Shown piece by piece: positions 18,438-26,931 of a DNA stretch of 64,000 nt. This DNA is from Thomasclavelia ramosa DSM 1402 (GTDB lineage Bacteria; Bacillota_I; Bacilli_A; Erysipelotrichales; Coprobacillaceae): the NCBI RefSeq assembly GCF_014131695.1, contig NZ_CP036346.1, forward strand, positions 496,001-560,000. The letters are read 5' to 3'. Both the position numbers and the translations under genes were made by a program. The notes under the pieces are model-generated. The model made no database searches. It saw only the letters and a program-made list of their open reading frames with translations, and was not told the origin of the DNA. How positions within the stretch are numbered: position 1 is the stretch's first letter; every line of letters begins with the position of its first letter.

Positions 18438-19298
18438 ATGAATAATATCCGTAAAGGGATGATGTGTATAATTTTAGCCGCTTTCTTTTTTGCAGCAATG
18501 AATGTATTTGTAAAATTAGCTGGCGATTTACCATCAATTCAAAAAAGTTTTTTTAGAAATTTGGTAGCTGCTTTATTTGCTTTTTTTATCCTATTAAAAA
18601 GTAAACAGGGATTTACATATAAACAAAAAGATTTACCGATGCTTTTATTACGCTCAGTCTTTGGAACGTTGGGAATTCTTTGTAATTTTTATGCAGTTGA
18701 TCATCTTTTAGTTAGTGATGCTTCGATGCTTAATAAATTATCACCATTTTTTGTAATTATTTGTTCCTCTTTGTTTTTAAAAGAAAAAGCGACAAGAATA
18801 CAAAAAATATCAATTATCGTAGCTTTCATTGGAAGCTTGTTTGTAATCAAACCATCTTTTAATCTTTTAAATAATGTGGATTCAATTATTGGTGTTTTGG
18901 GGGCATTAGGAGCAGGAATAGCTTATACTTGTGTGCGGAAGCTAGGTAAGCAGGGGGTAAATGGTGCAAAAATTGTATTTTTCTTTTCATGCTTTTCTTG
19001 TCTCAGTGTGTTACCATATTTAATAATTAATTATCAGCCGATGAGTTTAGAACAGTTTTTAATCTTACTAGGTGCAGGGTTAATGGCAGCTGGTGGTCAA
19101 TTTGCAATTACTGCGGCGTATAATAATGCAGCTGGCAAGGATATTTCAATCTATGATTATAGTCAAATATTATTTGCAGCGATATTAGGATTTATTTTCT
19201 TAAATCAAATTCCTGATATATGGAGCATAGTTGGATATATCATTATTATTGGTGCTGCTTTAGGAGTTTATTTATATCAACGAAGAATAGCTAATTAG
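18438..19298 (+). CDS. DMT-family (EamA) transporter
   Basis: A 286-residue membrane protein with about ten helices and the two-repeat EamA layout. The N-terminal half has MMCIILAAFFFAAMNVFVK and SIQKSFFRNLVAALFAFF; the second half has GALGAGIAYTCVRKLG and the C-terminal QILFAAILGFIFLNQIPD. These are features of the drug/metabolite transporter superfamily, whose members export or import small metabolites; the substrate is unknown. The start is the ATG at 18438 after TGGAGGTGCTT. It is a single gene with its own terminator; the stop lies within the palindrome. Confidence 0.88.
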   Translation: MNNIRKGMMCIILAAFFFAAMNVFVKLAGDLPSIQKSFFRNLVAALFAFFILLKSKQGFTYKQKDLPMLLLRSVFGTLGILCNFYAVDHLLVSDASMLNKLSPFFVIICSSLFLKEKATRIQKISIIVAFIGSLFVIKPSFNLLNNVDSIIGVLGALGAGIAYTCVRKLGKQGVNGAKIVFFFSCFSCLSVLPYLIINYQPMSLEQFLILLGAGLMAAGGQFAITAAYNNAAGKDISIYDYSQILFAAILGFIFLNQIPDIWSIVGYIIIIGAALGVYLYQRRIAN

Positions 19299-19309
19299 CT
19301 ATTTTTTTT
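19286..19309 (+). terminator. Terminator of the EamA transporter
   Basis: The palindrome AATAGCTAATTAGCTATT (19286-19303) runs into a T-tract. The stop codon of the gene is inside it. Confidence 0.75.
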
Positions 19310-19339
19310 ATGCAAACATATTGACATTTATTTTTTTGC

Positions 19340-19368
19340 TTGACGGAGTATTTATAGTGTGTTAAGAT
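19340..19368 (+). promoter_or_regulatory. Promoter of the sulfur amino acid operon leader
   Basis: The -35 TTGACG (19340-19345) and the -10 TAAGAT (19363-19368) are 17 bases apart. This predicts a start near 19375 and a leader of about 210 nt before the first full gene. A nearby TTGACA at 19321-19326 has no matching -10. Confidence 0.7.
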
Positions 19369-19419
19369 ACTTTACATAGCAAACCTATCGATATAGTAGG
19401 AAAAGAAGAGGAGCGAACG

Positions 19420-19515
19420 ATGATGTTAAAAAGCAGAAGAGATATGATGTATATGTGTATGTGCAGCTGTATACAAAAGTATAGGGTACATTTTCGTGTA
19501 TGCAAATATTCTTAA
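19420..19515 (+). CDS. Met/Cys-rich leader peptide of the sulfur amino acid operon
   Basis: A 31-codon open frame with a good ribosome binding site (AAGAGGAG, seven bases before the first ATG) is read as MMLKSRRDMMYMCMCSCIQK and then YRVHFRVCKYS. It has six Met and four Cys, and the MMYMCMCSC core is far too biased to be chance. It lies between a promoter and an intrinsic terminator, directly upstream of genes for Met/Cys uptake and metabolism. The natural reading is a leader peptide that senses charged tRNA-Cys and/or tRNA-Met: stalling at the Met/Cys run would favour an antiterminator, and free translation would allow the terminator. A second in-frame ATG is the next codon. The peptide itself probably has no function. 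Confidence 0.75.
   Translation: MMLKSRRDMMYMCMCSCIQKYRVHFRVCKYS
19486..19494 (+). promoter_or_regulatory. Candidate antiterminator strand
   Basis: GTACATTTT in the end of the leader frame can pair with GGGATGTTTAC (19537-19547) in the 5' arm of the terminator, with one two-base bulge and three G-U pairs. A ribosome stalled on the last Cys codon of the cluster (19468-19470) would leave it free, and a ribosome at the stop codon would cover or have melted it. This is a paper prediction only. Confidence 0.4.
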
Positions 19516-19534
19516 TACTATATTAAATGGGGTA

Positions 19535-19570
19535 GTGGGATGTTTACATAAACATCCCACTTTTGTTATT
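19535..19570 (+). terminator. Intrinsic terminator (attenuator) of the sulfur amino acid leader
   Basis: The arms GTGGGATGTT (19535-19544) and AACATCCCAC (19551-19560) form a perfect 10-bp stem followed by TTTTGTTATT. It lies 19 bases after the leader peptide stop and 18 bases before the M20 gene, so it must be read through for the operon to be expressed. Confidence 0.85.
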
Positions 19571-19587
19571 AAAAAGGGGGAATTAGA

Positions 19588-20742
19588 ATGGAAGACGACA
19601 GTTTACAAAAAGAATTAGAATATCAATTTGAGTGGTTTCATCGTAATCCGGAATTATCTTATGAGGAATATGAAACTACTAAAAGAATTAAAACATTATT
19701 ACAAGAGCATGATATTGAAGTTTTAGATTTACCATTAAAAACTGGATTAGTTGCAGTTATTAGAGGTGGATACCCTGGTAAAGTAATTGCTTTACGAAGT
19801 GATATTGATGCTTTACCAGTTAATGAGGAAACGACATTAAGCTATAAGTCAGAGATTGAAGGAAAGATGCATGCTTGTGGTCATGATTTTCATTTAACAA
19901 CGATTTATGGTGTTGCTTTATTGTTAAATGAAAATGCTGCTCAATTACATGGAACAGTAAAATTATTATTTCAACCGGCTGAAGAGTCTTCATTAGGAGC
20001 TCTAAAAATTATTGAGACAGGGGTTTTAGATGATGTTAATGCAATTTTTGGAATTCATAGTACTTCGCAGTTTGAAGTGGGAACAATTGGAATTAAAGCG
20101 GGGACAGTTTCAGCTGCTGTTGATCGATTTAAAATTAATTTGAAGGGCTTTGGAAGCCATGCAGCCCATCCACAAATGGCTAAAGATCCAATCGTTGCAG
20201 CTGCTGCATTAGTTAACAGCTTACAAACGATCGTTAGTCGAAATATGGATCCTTTTAATAGTAGTGTTTTAAGTATTACACATCTTCAAGCAGGGAATAC
20301 GTGGAATGTTATTCCTGAACAAGCCTTAATTGAAGGGACTGTTAGAACGCTGACTAGCGAGGAGAGGGAGCTGTTTGGAAAACGATTAAAGGAAATAACT
20401 TATGGGATTAGCCAAGCCTATGATCTTGATACAGAAATTGAGTGGATAGCGGGGCCTCCTGCAACCGTCAATGATGAGGAATGGAGTAATTTTGCTAAAG
20501 CAATTGCTCAAGCAGAAAAAATTGCTATAGGGATACCCGAAGCAACTTTAGGAGGCGAAGATTTTGCATTTTATCTTGAAAAAATCAGGGGAACATTTAT
20601 TAAAATCGGAACCGGAAAGACCTATCCTAATCATCATCCGAAGTTTAAGGTAAATCCTGCAGCTTTATCGTTAGCTGCAAAATATCTTAGCCAATTGGCG
20701 AAACAGGCTCTTTTAAAATTGGAGGCAGATGAGAATGATTAA
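19588..20742 (+). CDS. M20 family metallo-amidohydrolase
   Basis: A 384-residue amidohydrolase of the M20/ama/HipO group that removes acyl groups from N-acyl amino acids. The metal ligands are in MHACGHDFH (near 90), PAEESS (near 130), GIHST, and GGEDFAFY near the C terminus. The dimerisation domain lies in the middle. As the first gene of a Met/Cys operon it probably frees methionine or cysteine from N-acyl or related conjugates, as YxeP-like enzymes do in sulfur salvage; that is context inference. The start ATG follows AAAGGGGGAATTAG. Its end overlaps the start of metN. Confidence 0.88.
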   Translation: MEDDSLQKELEYQFEWFHRNPELSYEEYETTKRIKTLLQEHDIEVLDLPLKTGLVAVIRGGYPGKVIALRSDIDALPVNEETTLSYKSEIEGKMHACGHDFHLTTIYGVALLLNENAAQLHGTVKLLFQPAEESSLGALKIIETGVLDDVNAIFGIHSTSQFEVGTIGIKAGTVSAAVDRFKINLKGFGSHAAHPQMAKDPIVAAAALVNSLQTIVSRNMDPFNSSVLSITHLQAGNTWNVIPEQALIEGTVRTLTSEERELFGKRLKEITYGISQAYDLDTEIEWIAGPPATVNDEEWSNFAKAIAQAEKIAIGIPEATLGGEDFAFYLEKIRGTFIKIGTGKTYPNHHPKFKVNPAALSLAAKYLSQLAKQALLKLEADEND

Positions 20743-21757
20743 AATTGAACACGTAAATAAGACTTTTACAACTAAAAGTGGTGAAGTTCCAGCATTGCAA
20801 GATGTCTCTCTAGAAGTAGAAGCGGGTGATATTTACGGTGTAATCGGTTATTCTGGGGCTGGTAAATCAACGTTATTACGAATGGTAAATTTATTGGAAC
20901 GTCCTGAAAATGGGGCAATCTATATTAATAATCAAAATATTATAGATTTAAAAGAACGAGAATTAAATATTTTACGAAAAGATATAGGTATGATTTTTCA
21001 ACAGTTTAATTTATTAGAATCACAAACAGTCTATCAAAACATTGCTATCCCATTGATTCTTTCAAAACTGGATAAAAAAGCTATTGAAGTAAGAGTTAAA
21101 CAATTATTATCTTTTGTGGAATTGGAAGATAAGCGTGATACTTATGTATCACAACTGTCTGGGGGTCAAAAACAAAGAATTGGTATTGCTAGAGCATTAG
21201 CTACAGAACCTAAGATTTTACTCTGTGATGAGGCAACTAGTGCTTTAGATCCACAGACAACAGAAGCAATTTTATTGCTGCTTAAAAAAATTAATTGTGA
21301 ACTTGGGATAACAATTTTGTTAATAACTCATGAGATGAATGTAATCAAGAAAATTTGTAATAAAGTAGCGGTAATGAAATCTGGTAAAATCATTGAGAAA
21401 GGTGATACTTTAGAGGTTTTTAGTAATCCACAACAAGAAATGACAAAGAGATTTGTTGAAACAGTTATTAGCAATGTAATTCCAACCACACTTTTAAAAG
21501 AATTAGATTATCGGTATCCGGTTTTAAAACTTACTTTTTTTGGTGAAAGTACAAAGCATGATGTAATTTCTAAAATTAATAAGCATTTTAAAATTATAAC
21601 AACAATTTTATTTGCTTCAGTTAATGAAGTAGGAGAAGATATTTTAGGAATTTTAACAATTCAGTTAAAAGGTGAACAGGATGAAGTTATTCGAGCGATA
21701 AATTATATTCAAAAACAAGATGTGAAGATAGAGAGGGTGGAATTGAATTATGATTGA
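20735..21757 (+). CDS. metN: Methionine/cystine ABC transporter ATPase
   Basis: The 340-residue ATP-binding subunit of a MetNIQ importer. It shows Walker A GYSGAGKST (near 38), the Q-loop, signature LSGGQKQR, Walker B ILLCDEATSALD, and a C-terminal NIL-type sensor domain (about residues 250-340) that in MetN binds methionine and slows transport. The ATG at 20735 was chosen because GGAGG ends nine bases upstream; the ATG six bases earlier is too close to it. It overlaps the M20 gene and is overlapped by metI. Confidence 0.92.
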   Translation: MIKIEHVNKTFTTKSGEVPALQDVSLEVEAGDIYGVIGYSGAGKSTLLRMVNLLERPENGAIYINNQNIIDLKERELNILRKDIGMIFQQFNLLESQTVYQNIAIPLILSKLDKKAIEVRVKQLLSFVELEDKRDTYVSQLSGGQKQRIGIARALATEPKILLCDEATSALDPQTTEAILLLLKKINCELGITILLITHEMNVIKKICNKVAVMKSGKIIEKGDTLEVFSNPQQEMTKRFVETVISNVIPTTLLKELDYRYPVLKLTFFGESTKHDVISKINKHFKIITTILFASVNEVGEDILGILTIQLKGEQDEVIRAINYIQKQDVKIERVELNYD

Positions 21758-22418
21758 AAATTATTTAAATATACCTGCTGATAAATTACTTGAAGCGGCA
21801 GGCCAGACAATTTATATGTTGGGAATATCATTATTTTTTGGAACCTTGATAGGAATACCGCTAGGCTTACTTTTAGTCCTTACTAGAAAAAATGGAGTTA
21901 AAGCCAATCATACAATTCATTTTCTTGTGAGTGGGTTAGTAAATATTGTTAGATCTGTGCCATTTGTAATCTTATTAGTATTTATTGCTCCGCTAACAAA
22001 AGTGCTGGTTGGAACAAGAATAGGAACAAAGGCTGCAATTGTTCCATTAGTATTTTATATTGCACCATATTTGGCTCGTTTGATAGAAAGTTCTATATTA
22101 GAAGTTCAACCGGGAATTTTAGAAGCTGCTAAAGCAATGGGGGCAAATACTTTGGAAATCATTCGTTATTTTTTATTACCAGAGGCGAAAGCTTCGTTAG
22201 TTTTAGCACTTACTACTGGAACGATCGGTTTATTGGGGGCAACTGCTATGGCTGGAACAATCGGCGGCGGTGGTGTTGGTGATTTAGCATTAACTTATGG
22301 TTATCAGCGTTTTAATAATACTCTAATGTTTGTTACCGTAATCATTTTAATTATCTTTGTACAATTAATTCAAACATTGGGAAATCATTTATCTAAAAAA
22401 ATTAGAACACATGAATAG
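21750..22418 (+). CDS. metI: Methionine ABC transporter permease
   Basis: The 222-residue MetI-type permease has five likely membrane helices. The EAA loop with ESSILEVQPGILEAAKAMGA contacts the ATPase. TAMAGTIGGGGVGDLALTYGYQRFN is a hallmark of MetI. The start overlaps the metN end by eight bases and the stop overlaps an ATG before metQ, so the three transport genes are coupled. Confidence 0.93.
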   Translation: MIENYLNIPADKLLEAAGQTIYMLGISLFFGTLIGIPLGLLLVLTRKNGVKANHTIHFLVSGLVNIVRSVPFVILLVFIAPLTKVLVGTRIGTKAAIVPLVFYIAPYLARLIESSILEVQPGILEAAKAMGANTLEIIRYFLLPEAKASLVLALTTGTIGLLGATAMAGTIGGGGVGDLALTYGYQRFNNTLMFVTVIILIIFVQLIQTLGNHLSKKIRTHE

Positions 22419-22428
22419 GGGAAGAAAA

Positions 22429-23241
22429 ATGAAAAAGAGAATATTGAGTTTATTATTAGTGATGGTTTTTGTTTTGGCCGGATGCCAAAGTAGTAGTGAT
22501 AAAAGTGAAGATAAGACAACAATTATCTATGGTAAGGCAGCGGGGCCATATACAGTCTTATTTGAAGATGCCATTATTCCAATTTTGAAAAAAGAAGGTT
22601 ATCAATTTAAATGCATCGAATTTTCAGATTTATTGCAAAATGATACAGCCTTAAATGAAGGCGAGATAGATGTCAATGTTGAGCAGCATACAGCTTACAT
22701 GAAAAATTTTAATGAATCACAAGATGGTGATTTAGTAGCTTTGACAGCAATTCCAACTGTACCTGCAGGAATTTTCTCAAATACTCATAAAAGCTTAGAG
22801 GAAATTAAAAAGGGCGCTAAGATTGCTGTACCAAACGATGCTTCAAATACATCTAGAGCATATGTTTTATTACAAAAAGCAAAGTATATTACTTTAGATC
22901 CAGATGTGGATATTAGTTCCGTGACAAAAGATGATATTATTAAAAATCCTTATGAAATAGAGTTTACAGAAATGGATTCAACAATGATTCCTCAAGCTTT
23001 AGATGAGTTTGATTATGCTGTAATCACCGGCAGCATAGTTTATAATGCAGGAATTGATGCTTCGAGTGCGTTATTACAGGAGGATGTTTTAGAACATTTA
23101 TTGTTACAAGTAGTTGTAAAAGAAAAAAATAAAGATACAAAATGGGCTAAAGCAATTGTTGAAGCTTATCGTTCAAAAGAATTTAAAGAATATTTAGATA
23201 AAAATAATAATGGTTTATGGTATGTACCTAGCTATAATTAA
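22429..23241 (+). CDS. metQ: MetQ-type substrate-binding lipoprotein
   Basis: A 270-residue lipoprotein that delivers substrate to MetNI. The signal peptide MKKRILSLLLVMVFVLAGC ends in a lipobox (LAGC). The mature domain shows IPTVPAGIFSNTHKSLEEI and KIAVPNDASNTSRAYVLLQ, typical of the NlpA/MetQ family. The ATG at 22429 follows AGGGGAAGAAAA; an ATG at 22411 is part of the overlap with metI and has no proper ribosome binding site. D/L-Met, cystine or peptides are all possible ligands in the family. Confidence 0.92.
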   Translation: MKKRILSLLLVMVFVLAGCQSSSDKSEDKTTIIYGKAAGPYTVLFEDAIIPILKKEGYQFKCIEFSDLLQNDTALNEGEIDVNVEQHTAYMKNFNESQDGDLVALTAIPTVPAGIFSNTHKSLEEIKKGAKIAVPNDASNTSRAYVLLQKAKYITLDPDVDISSVTKDDIIKNPYEIEFTEMDSTMIPQALDEFDYAVITGSIVYNAGIDASSALLQEDVLEHLLLQVVVKEKNKDTKWAKAIVEAYRSKEFKEYLDKNNNGLWYVPSYN

Positions 23242-23297
23242 AAGGGGATAAGTGTGAAAGAAATTTATAAAAAAAGCCGACCTAAAAAATTAAAAAT

Positions 23298-24300
23298 TCA
23301 TGATGAACTCGTTTGTTGAATAGAAGATAAATTGATTTGGCTTATATCAATATCCATGGATTTCAATAATTCTAATGCTTGATGAGTGGTTATCTTCTGG
23401 TTGCCTGGTTTTGGATTTTTTAATGATTCATAATCAGATGGATTGAAGTTTTCACCAGTTTTTGTCATATGGTATATAGAAATAAGAATCATTCTAGCGG
23501 TCGCTATAATAGCTTTCTTATGACCACGTCGTTTCTTAATACGATTATACTTGATTCTGAAATATGTTTCTTTTTCACTCTTGATAGCCGAAAGAGCACA
23601 TTGAACAAGAAGTGGTTTCAAATACTAACCAGTTTTGAATATATTCGTCAAGATTATTCATGTGTTTTATAGTGCAGTTGATTTTGAATCTTTGGTCAGA
23701 TTCAATGTGAGAATTCTGAATGGCTTGAAAAATTTGATCAGATTTCTTTGAAACAGAACCCTTGAGAATTTTCTTAAGATTGTCTTCAGTGATAATATCA
23801 CTTTTGAGAATCTCATCCATGGCAGCTTTACAATTCTTTCCTAAATGATCAGTAGAGACAGAAGCTAAGGCAATATTAGAAACAGTCATACAGTTTTGAT
23901 AACGATTGCGTTCAGAAGAGCGCTTATTGACAAGTTTAATGCGATAATGTGATATTTTTCTAAGTTCTCTAATGTTTTTAGGTGGAATAAAAGAGTACTT
24001 GAGAAGATCTTGTTTAAAGATGTTAGCAATCCATTTTGAATCTTTCTTATCGGTTTTCTTACTTCTAATCACCTTCACGTATTTAGGATGAGTAAGAAAA
24101 ATATTGAGTTCAGATTCAAGGATATTAAAGACAGGAATCCAGTACTTACTGGTAGATTCCATGCAAACATCAAAACAGTTGTTTGATTTAAGCCAGTTTA
24201 AAAGATTCAACAAATCAGAGTTAAAAGTAGAAAACTGCTTTTGAATATAGGTCGTGACATTATTATCACCAGAAGCAGCGATGGCCGCTACAAAAAATAA
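23298..24300 (-). pseudogene. Inactive IS110-family transposase
   Basis: Two minus-strand reading frames form one broken IS110-family transposase. The N-terminal part (24213 back to ~23620) reads FDVCMESTSKYWIPVFN, then LTHPKYVKVIRSKKTDKKDS, both typical of the DEDD domain. The C-terminal part reads KPLLVQCALSAI and RRGHKKAIIATARMIL, typical of the transposase_20 region. The frames join out of register near 23620, and the intervening SWAGL-type segment is missing, so there is an internal deletion. The start codon is also lost: GGAGG is followed by an open frame with no ATG, and the expected first Asp (GIDVS-like) reads AIAAS. It cannot move by itself. Confidence 0.85.
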
Positions 24301-24309
24301 AACCTCCTT

Positions 24310-24545
24310 TCAAAGAAAGAAGAAGTGGTACTGACTGTCATCTAGCAATATGACCAAATTGGTAATATATCAATAATAAGTGTCCAGGCTCTGAGTCCTA
24401 ATTATTTGTGCTCGAAAAGATGACGGCGACTTATAATTATACAAGATATTCTAACGAGTAGAATTACCTACTCTACTTCTCGTGCTCTGTAGTATACTAC
24501 CTCCCTTTCATTATAGCAGGGGGTAGTAGAGTAGAAGGAATCAGA
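24310..24545 (-). ncRNA. Candidate bridge RNA region of the IS110 element
   Basis: IS110 elements carry their guide (bridge) RNA in the noncoding end upstream of the transposase. Here that region, read on the minus strand, has a TATAAT (24508-24513) followed by a self-complementary GTAGTATACTAC, then GAGTAG and CTACTC around a short loop near 24449-24471. A further run of complementary CTACTCTACT/AGTAGAGTAG segments lies close by. The structure is suggestive; no guide loops were assigned. Confidence 0.35.
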
Positions 24546-24602
24546 ATGTCTTTCAAGAAATATTTGTGTCCATGCGCTTAGCGTGGGGAAATGGAGAAAA
24601 GT

Positions 24603-25760
24603 ATGAAATATGAATTTGAAACTCGTTGTATTCATCCTGCAAATTTAGAATTGAAACAGCATCCTTATGGTGCTGTTTCAATTCCAATATACCAAACAGC
24701 AATTTTTTCTCATCCTGGGATTGGGGAAAGCAGAGGGCATAACTACTCTCGTGAAAGTAATCCAACAAGAGCTTATTTAGAAGAGATTATTTCCAATTTA
24801 GAGGGCGCAGTTGATACAGTTGCTTGTTCTAGTGGAATGGCAGCAATTTCATTGGTACTAGAACTTTTTAGTAGTGGTGATCATTTGATATGTTCAAATG
24901 ATTTATATGGCGGTTCAACTCGACTATTTACTTTGCAGCAAAATAAAGGTTTAAAATTCAGTTATGTTGATACAACTAATTTAAAGAGTTTTAAGCAGTA
25001 TATTCGTCCTCAAACAAAAGCTGTTTTTATTGAAACGCCGAGTAACCCAACAATGCAAATAAGTGATTTAAAAAAAATTAGTGCCTTGTGTCAAGCCCAC
25101 AAGCTGTTACTAATTGTTGATAATACCTTCCTTTCACCATATTTTCAAAATCCATTATTATTAGGTGCTGATATTGTAATTCATAGTGCTACTAAGTTTC
25201 TAAGTGGGCATAATGATATTATTGCTGGAAGTATTTCGACTGGTGATCATAAACTAGCTAAAAGGATTAGAGAAGTTTCAAAGACAGTTGGAAATAGCTT
25301 GTCACCACTAGATTGTTATTTATTGATTCGGGGGATCAAGACGCTGGCAATCAGACAAAAATCGCAACAAGAAAATGCGCTGAAAATTTCAAACTGGTTA
25401 AATCGGCATCCGCGGGTTAGCAAAGTTTATTATCCTGGTTTAATAGAGCATCCAGGATATGAAATCAATAGAAATCAAGCCCGCGGCTTTGGCAGCATGA
25501 TAGCCTTTAGTGTTGAAAATCATTTTTTAGCAAAAAAGATTTTAGAAAATGTACAATTAATTACTTATGCAGAAAGTCTTGGAGGTGTGGAGTCATTGAT
25601 TACTTATCCAATGATTCAAACCCATGGTGATGTTCCAGCAGAAATTAGAGCTAAATTAGGAATTACAGATAATTTTTTGCGATTATCAGTAGGAATAGAA
25701 AATATTGATGATTTATTAGCTGATTTGAGGCAGGCTTTTGGTGATAATGATGAAATCTAA
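24603..25760 (+). CDS. Cystathionine gamma-synthase/lyase family PLP enzyme
   Basis: A 385-residue PLP enzyme of the Cys/Met metabolism family (MetB/MetC/MegL-like). It shows YSRESNPTRAYLEE near the N terminus, SSGMAAISLVLELF, the VDNTFLSPYFQNPL Asp, and the PLP lysine in HSATKFLSGHNDI (near 195). The C-terminal AESLGGVESLITYPMIQTH is typical. It could make cystathionine from an activated homoserine, or break cystathionine or Met; sequence alone does not separate these. The ATG at 24603 is preceded by GGAGAAAAGT. It overlaps the next gene and lies just downstream of the IS110 remnant. Confidence 0.9.
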   Translation: MKYEFETRCIHPANLELKQHPYGAVSIPIYQTAIFSHPGIGESRGHNYSRESNPTRAYLEEIISNLEGAVDTVACSSGMAAISLVLELFSSGDHLICSNDLYGGSTRLFTLQQNKGLKFSYVDTTNLKSFKQYIRPQTKAVFIETPSNPTMQISDLKKISALCQAHKLLLIVDNTFLSPYFQNPLLLGADIVIHSATKFLSGHNDIIAGSISTGDHKLAKRIREVSKTVGNSLSPLDCYLLIRGIKTLAIRQKSQQENALKISNWLNRHPRVSKVYYPGLIEHPGYEINRNQARGFGSMIAFSVENHFLAKKILENVQLITYAESLGGVESLITYPMIQTHGDVPAEIRAKLGITDNFLRLSVGIENIDDLLADLRQAFGDNDEI

Positions 25761-26931
25761 TTTTGATTCAATAATAAACCGTACTAATACAAACTCCTTA
25801 AAGTATGATTTCACTAGTGAAAGAGAACGTCCTGATGATATTTTACCGTTATGGGTGGCAGATATGGATTTTATCGTTGCTCCAGAAATACAACAACGAT
25901 TATATGATGTGGTAAATCATGGTATTTATGGATATAGTGATAGTAAGGATGGTTATTATCAAGCTATTTATAGTTGGTATCGGTCAAAATTTAATTACGA
26001 AATAAAAAAGGAATGGATAGTTAAGACGCCTGGTGTTGTATTTGCTTTAGCACAAGCAGTGCGGGCATTTACTAAATTGGGTGATGGAGTAATTATTCAA
26101 ACACCAGTATATTATCCTTTTAAAGAAGTAATTATTGATAACGGAAGACGTGTTATAACAAATTCTTTAGTTTTAAAAAACGCTCATTATGAAATAGACT
26201 TTGATGATTTTGAAGAGAAGATTAAGAAAGAAAAAGTAAAATTGTTTATTTTATGTTCGCCACATAATCCAGTTGGTCGAGTTTGGAAAAAAGATGAGCT
26301 ATTAAAATTAGGGCAAATCTGCCTTAAAAATGATGTTAAAATTATTAGTGATGAAATCCATAGTGATTTTATTTATCCGGGGCATCAGCATCATGTTTTT
26401 GCATCATTAAAGACAGAATTACAGAATATTACAATAACCTGTACGGCTCCTACTAAAACTTTTAATTTGGCCGGATTACAAATTTCAAATATTTTTATTG
26501 CCGATGAAAAATTGAGATTACAATTTAAAAAAGCTATTGCCAGTACTGGTTATAGCCAGTGTAATTTGTTTGGATTAGCAGCTTGCCAGACAGCTTATGA
26601 ATCGTGTTCAAGCTGGCTTGAAGATTTAAAGCAATATTTATTTGAAAATACACGGTTTGTAGATGAATATTTGAAAGAACACATACCATTGATAAAGTTG
26701 ATTATCCCGGAGGGAACTTATTTGCTTTGGCTTGATTTTAGAAGATTACAAATTTCAGATAAAGAATTAAATGATTTATTGATTGAACATGCTCGATTAT
26801 GGCTAGATAGTGGAACGATGTTTGGAAAAGAAGGAAAAGGGTTTCAAAGAATTAACATTGCTTGCCCAAGAGCATATTTAAGACAAGCTTTGAATCAATT
26901 GAAAAATGCACTTGAAGAAATTGAATATTAA
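25750..26931 (+). CDS. PatB/MalY-type cystathionine beta-lyase
   Basis: A 393-residue fold-type I PLP enzyme of the MalY/PatB group, which act as C-S beta-lyases on cystathionine and related thioethers. Features are DILPLWVADMDF, KTPGVVFALAQAVRAF, LCSPHNPVGRVW, SDEIHSDFIYPGHQH, and the PLP lysine in CTAPTKTFNLAGLQ (near 233). Together with the preceding enzyme it would complete the pathway from cysteine or homoserine to homocysteine, or release sulfide and ammonia from thioethers. The start overlaps the previous gene; ATG ATG at 25747/25750 are both possible and I used the second for ribosome spacing. Confidence 0.9.
   Translation: MKSNFDSIINRTNTNSLKYDFTSERERPDDILPLWVADMDFIVAPEIQQRLYDVVNHGIYGYSDSKDGYYQAIYSWYRSKFNYEIKKEWIVKTPGVVFALAQAVRAFTKLGDGVIIQTPVYYPFKEVIIDNGRRVITNSLVLKNAHYEIDFDDFEEKIKKEKVKLFILCSPHNPVGRVWKKDELLKLGQICLKNDVKIISDEIHSDFIYPGHQHHVFASLKTELQNITITCTAPTKTFNLAGLQISNIFIADEKLRLQFKKAIASTGYSQCNLFGLAACQTAYESCSSWLEDLKQYLFENTRFVDEYLKEHIPLIKLIIPEGTYLLWLDFRRLQISDKELNDLLIEHARLWLDSGTMFGKEGKGFQRINIACPRAYLRQALNQLKNALEEIEY

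Follow-up and report, generated by a model that had tools for sequence, protein, structure and literature searches.

The sulfur-scavenging operon of Thomasclavelia ramosa DSM 1402 probably begins with a transcription attenuator that works through the ribosome, like those of trp, his and leu, and senses cysteine starvation, as judged from its sequence and from folding models. A short leader frame and two competing RNA folds are kept in three species of the genus, and a ribosome reading the leader therefore probably switches the operon on at cysteine shortage. The locus lies in the window, the whole stretch of 64,000 nucleotides analysed here, which comes from a 3.25-Mb genome (G000). Counterparts occur in two other species of the same genus (G003 and G004). 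The control region carries the following features:

19340..19368, + strand: promoter TTGACG-17-TAAGAT with TG before the -10 element, a 9 of 12 match, similar and aligned in both relatives
19384..19400, + strand: 5'-UTR inverted repeat CCTA-N9-TAGG, present in three species whose loops differ, folding in the models
19420..19515, + strand: leader peptide ORF of 31 codons, MMLKSRRDMMYMCMCSCIQKYRVHFRVCKYS*, with homologues of equal length and frame in G003 and G004
19453..19470, + strand: control-codon core M12-C13-M14-C15-S16-C17, invariant in three species
19490..19499, + strand: conserved UUUUCGUGUA segment, pairing in models with the leader start region or in a hairpin with 19487-19493
19502..19511, + strand: antiterminator 5' strand GCAAAUAUUC, leader codons 28-31, identical in three species
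19534..19561, + strand: intrinsic terminator stem-loop, z -6.4, with compensatory change in two pairs

The frame of 31 codons with its own ribosome binding site and Met/Cys core, described in the original prediction, is seen directly in the DNA. A Shine-Dalgarno sequence, GAGGAG, lies 7 nt 5' of the ATG at 19420, the stop codon is at 19513, and all three species have a short leader ORF of 31 codons with a Shine-Dalgarno sequence and an ATG. Its occurrence exceeds chance, since among 20,000 dinucleotide shuffles of 19375-19533 a Shine-Dalgarno-preceded frame with CxCxC appears in 0.035% (p = 0.00035) and a Met/Cys-rich frame in 0.03%. With nine genes of the window as background (2.0% Met, 1.3% Cys), codons 2-24 contain 5, 5 and 4 Met in the three species (p 8e-5 to 1e-3) and 3, 4 and 3 Cys (p 2e-4 to 3e-3); for the window leader the over-representation has p 8e-5 for Met and p 3e-3 for Cys. 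The expected enrichment of control codons thus holds for both amino acids, with CxCxC kept in all three species. The leader peptide has no match in Pfam or NCBIfam.

Comparison with the relatives adds to this picture. In G003 and G004 the leader reads MNTxxKxNQNMMCMCSCIQMYRV[CY]FRV[CR]KYS*, is likewise 31 codons long with its core at codons 12-17, and is followed by the terminator and then by M20-metN-metI-metQ-gamma-lyase-PatB, in the same order as in the window. The Met/Cys codons and the terminator, which the original prediction proposed to look for in related genomes, are therefore present in both relatives that have the operon. The M20 proteins of window and relatives are 70% identical, and over the final 20 residues of the leader the window and G004 agree at 18. 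Over the first 11 codons the sequences have diverged. A start shifted by 1 nt is compensated there by a gap of 1 nt ahead of the core, and the constant length of the leader despite the moved start speaks for translation of the frame. Some Met codons sit at different places in the species (M9 and M10 in the window, M11 and M20 in the relatives), at a similar number. Codons 17-31 are conserved as much for the RNA as for the peptide, so their conservation is no proof that the peptide matters.

The promoter match alone is at chance level, with 6 such sites found against 7.6 expected, and it is aligned in the relatives. The proposal that the operon has a promoter of its own gains from this promoter-like site, present in the window and aligned in both relatives, which places the predicted transcription start at about 19375. 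Just 3' of the predicted start, the CCTA-N9-TAGG repeat is a candidate 5' stem-loop or regulator operator. Between the leader and the M20 start at 19588 lies the terminator. It is present as predicted, and it is strong and kept in relatives, its stem being 12 bp rather than the 10 bp first proposed; the T-rich tail, which runs to about 19570, is modest in the window and better in the relatives. All 9/9 compared pairs are kept in the three species, with compensatory changes A-U/G-C and C-G/U-A. This covariation is equalled in 66/500 shuffles and that of the antiterminator in 154/500, each a control without power, given three sequences of which two are close; for this reason no significant covariation is claimed for either helix.

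A competing antiterminator exists, as had been expected, being common to the three species and weak in the window alone. Its core pairs AAUAUUC with GGAUGUU, joining 19502-19511 to the terminator 5' arm at 19538-19544 in one register in all three species, and it excludes the terminator because both folds use 19538-19544. The antiterminator fold has z of -1.6 in the window (p 0.07) and of -4.6 and -3.7 in the relatives, and by mononucleotide shuffle the window duplex alone gives p 0.27. The strand originally assigned to this role, 19486-19494, is probably not the right one: its partner in the folds is 19495-19503 or the start of the leader, and in the models 19502-19511 competes best with the terminator in each of the three species. 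The neighbouring conserved segment at 19490-19499 is complementary to about 19411-19425, the leader's own start region (p 0.087, 0.043 and 0.011 in the three species against shuffles). Pairing of UUUUCGUGUA may, according to the models, mask the leader start codon once the first ribosome has passed, limiting translation to the pioneer ribosome.

A stall map, in which the RNA 3' of the ribosome was folded as far as the terminator loop for each A-site codon with an assumed footprint, separates two states in silico. With the A site at codons 2-24 the antiterminator probability is at least 0.86, and from codon 26 to the stop it is 0; the outcome at codon 25 varies with the footprint assumed. The antiterminator strand is free while the A site is at core codons 12-17 and is covered once the ribosome has reached the stop codon, and the geometry therefore fits a classical attenuator. 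The direction of switching proposed earlier, from stall to read-through, agrees with this in silico map. At equilibrium both the window and the G003 RNA prefer the finished terminator to the antiterminator. Because the full terminator is the more stable fold in these two, the switch must be kinetic and depend on the order in which the strands are made, as in trp. In RNA free of ribosomes the terminator is favoured in the window and the antiterminator in G004, and when upstream RNA is allowed to pair around the ribosome, the window 5' UTR displaces the antiterminator in the folding model.

In the E. coli trp, his and leu leaders, there are control codons, one RNA strand is covered when the ribosome has reached the stop codon, and an antiterminator competes with a terminator. 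The present locus differs in the amino acid sensed, in having the antiterminator strand inside the last leader codons, and in a nearby segment able to mask the start of the leader as well. From its parts we infer that the leader is translated, that the ribosome stalls on it, that polymerase reads through and which amino acid is sensed, cysteine being the most likely signal. RNA polymerase would start at about 19375 and a ribosome would begin to translate the leader ORF. With ample charged tRNA-Cys, this ribosome would reach the stop codon at 19513, its footprint would cover 19502-19511, and the terminator at 19534-19561 could form, leaving the operon off. When charged tRNA-Cys (possibly also tRNA-Met) is short, the ribosome would stall at codons 12-17, the last leader codons could pair with the emerging 5' arm of the terminator, and polymerase would read into the M20 deacylase gene and the rest of the operon, which comprises these genes:

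19588..20742, + strand: M20-family amidohydrolase (deacylase), first structural gene, TIGR01891 above cut-off and PF01546
20729..21757, + strand: metN, ABC transporter ATPase, best NCBIfam match TIGR02314, below cut-off
21750..22418, + strand: metI, ABC transporter permease, NF008049 just below cut-off
22411..23241, + strand: metQ/NlpA-family substrate-binding lipoprotein, NCBIfam match below cut-off
24591..25760, + strand: cystathionine gamma-synthase/lyase family PLP enzyme, below each equivalog cut-off
25738..26931, + strand: PatB-family C-S lyase, TIGR04350 above cut-off

The earlier identification of M20, metNIQ, gamma-synthase/lyase and PatB genes downstream is broadly borne out by NCBIfam and Pfam. 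Together, the deacylase, the MetNIQ-type transporter and the two C-S bond enzymes would take up organic sulfur compounds and either release cysteine and homocysteine or convert one into the other.

The surroundings of these genes differ among the three genomes. In the window, metQ and the gamma-lyase gene are kept apart by an insertion at 23242-24590 that contains a broken IS110-type transposase (PF01548), whose remnants form overlapping reverse frames at 23575-24213 and 23298-23621. In both relatives the gamma-lyase gene is directly 3' of metQ, and the distal genes beyond the insertion may have lost attenuator control in the window strain. Upstream of the operon lies an EamA-type transporter gene in the window, as against an ispD-like gene in both relatives (ispD by sequence reading), and in each of the three genomes the upstream gene comes with a terminator-like inverted repeat of its own. 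In the window this is the terminator-like AGCTAATTAGCT plus T8 at 19287-19311, which overlaps the end of the EamA transporter gene and separates it from the operon. Since the upstream genes differ and each has its own terminator-like repeat, leader and operon form a unit that persists in different neighbourhoods.

Dual sensing of methionine and cysteine by the same attenuator, as first suggested, is possible. The stall map cannot distinguish Met from Cys because all core Met and Cys codons fall within the permissive range, and it favours neither of them, nor any other amino acid, up to codon 24. An OR gate in which both kinds of codon exert control, nested in the main reading, is a tentative option: enrichment in the stall-permissive codons 2-24 is as high for Met as for Cys, some Met positions vary between species at a similar number, every codon up to 24 is permissive, and the operon handles both amino acids. 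Against this, the Met codons sit in a TATG/TGTATG simple-repeat stretch, and Met shortage also cuts initiation, leaving a ribosome-free window RNA that folds the terminator. Initiator and elongator tRNA-Met are charged by one common synthetase. The fuller proposal of a two-input Met/Cys (OR) leader in a lineage whose other devices are T-boxes and a SAM riboswitch, with a start masked by a later segment and the decision made mainly by the pioneer ribosome, is doubtful.

Other explanations move the switch away from empty A-site codons or away from the ribosome altogether. Control at the promoter by a DNA-binding regulator of the CymR or LysR type, with leader and terminator secondary or constitutive, would account for the CCTA-N9-TAGG inverted repeat kept in three species. 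It is improbable as the main mechanism, for it leaves an in-frame, Shine-Dalgarno-bearing Cys-rich ORF with a linked terminator and antiterminator unexplained, and such control can coexist with attenuation. Arrest by the nascent peptide or by a small molecule (SAM, cysteine or a metal acting on the Cys-rich chain) would fit the conservation of the whole core and of the downstream peptide IQxYRVxFRV, which goes beyond Met and Cys. The conserved downstream stretch doubles, however, as an RNA strand of the alternative hairpins, which explains its conservation without a peptide effect; a core at codons 12-17 is also short for a tunnel-arrest peptide, and arrest of this kind seems very improbable. 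Least credible of all is a functional Cys-rich microprotein whose transcript is merely ended by the terminator. The peptide is conserved and its length fixed, as a microprotein would require, yet the N-terminal third is unconserved, the last codons double as antiterminator, and the ORF, matching nothing in Pfam or NCBIfam, is always in cis to the operon. Attenuation through stalling at Cys codons is the preferred reading.

Within the genus, other devices are common. T-box matches number 22 in G000 and 18-22 per genome across nine genus genomes, none of them listed in the window's part of the genome, and the same nine genomes have one SAM riboswitch each, that of G000 preceding metK. The window contains no match to any Rfam family, including T-box RF00230 and SAM riboswitch RF00162, and the operon accordingly uses neither device.

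Genome searches point to a narrow distribution. Among 43 genomes of the family, the M20 gene (E < 1e-60) occurs in only 3, and the leader is found in those 3 and in none of the other 40. The MCMCSC-I codon pattern matched only the window among 392 genomes of its own phylum. When the leader peptide was searched against 391 genomes from the class of a Lachnospiraceae relative and 398 from that of a Bacillus relative, the three matches were weak, lay inside unrelated loci and reflect chance. Only noise was obtained in 16 genomes with M20 relatives, plasmids and viral contigs contained no leader homologue, and M20 relatives of other groups (37-56% identity) had no comparable leader upstream in those checked. 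Overall, some 1200 sampled genomes gave no homologue beyond the genus, and in such a sample a diverged Cys leader would escape detection.

The original prediction treated leader-peptide attenuation as foreign to Firmicutes, a view that is out of date given the precedents of Rli60 in Listeria (PMC5864092) and of the hisS/hisZ leaders in bacilli (PMC2965389). In Listeria monocytogenes, Rli60 is the ilv-leu leader, for which ribosome-mediated attenuation was shown experimentally and start and RBS mutants super-attenuate (PMC5864092). Like the present locus, it combines a Firmicute leader ORF bearing control codons with a terminator and an antiterminator; unlike it, Rli60 senses branched-chain amino acids through a 13-aa leader of other sequence, before another operon (PMC5864092). 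In bacilli, His leader peptides replace T-boxes before hisZ and hisS*, according to a 2010 Genome Biology analysis, which makes them regular leader peptides in Firmicutes that differ in their His codons and their tRNA synthetase genes (PMC2965389). For cysteine, uORFC-8-2 before Rhodobacterales cysS is a candidate for Cys-tRNA-sensing attenuation that resembles this leader in placing a Cys-codon uORF before an intrinsic terminator (PMC8632094). It belongs to Alphaproteobacteria, has tandem Cys at 14-15 and precedes a tRNA synthetase gene rather than a scavenging operon, and the passages of that source dealing with it describe no alternation with Met (PMC8632094). Actinobacterial cys operons and cbs likewise have Cys codons in short ORFs before sulfur genes; there the Cys runs lie near the stop codon, no terminator is conserved and Rho has been suggested (PMC1262725), whereas here the core occupies codons 12-17 of 31 and an intrinsic terminator and antiterminator are present. 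In the library searched there was no paper on Met control codons in leader peptides, nor on this locus.

Collectively, these comparisons suggest that the leader is probably a lineage-specific switch of a known type, in a lineage that normally uses other devices. That no Rfam, Pfam or NCBIfam family matches this leader, and that no homologue appeared outside the genus, indicates that leader-peptide attenuators may be private to a few species and escape family models. The genus has about 20 T-boxes per genome, and one of its sulfur-scavenging operons seems to rely on an enterobacterial-style Cys/Met ribosome switch, which would add cysteine to the amino acids sensed by Bacillota leader peptides with intrinsic terminators and makes the locus a compact test of Met codons as control codons.
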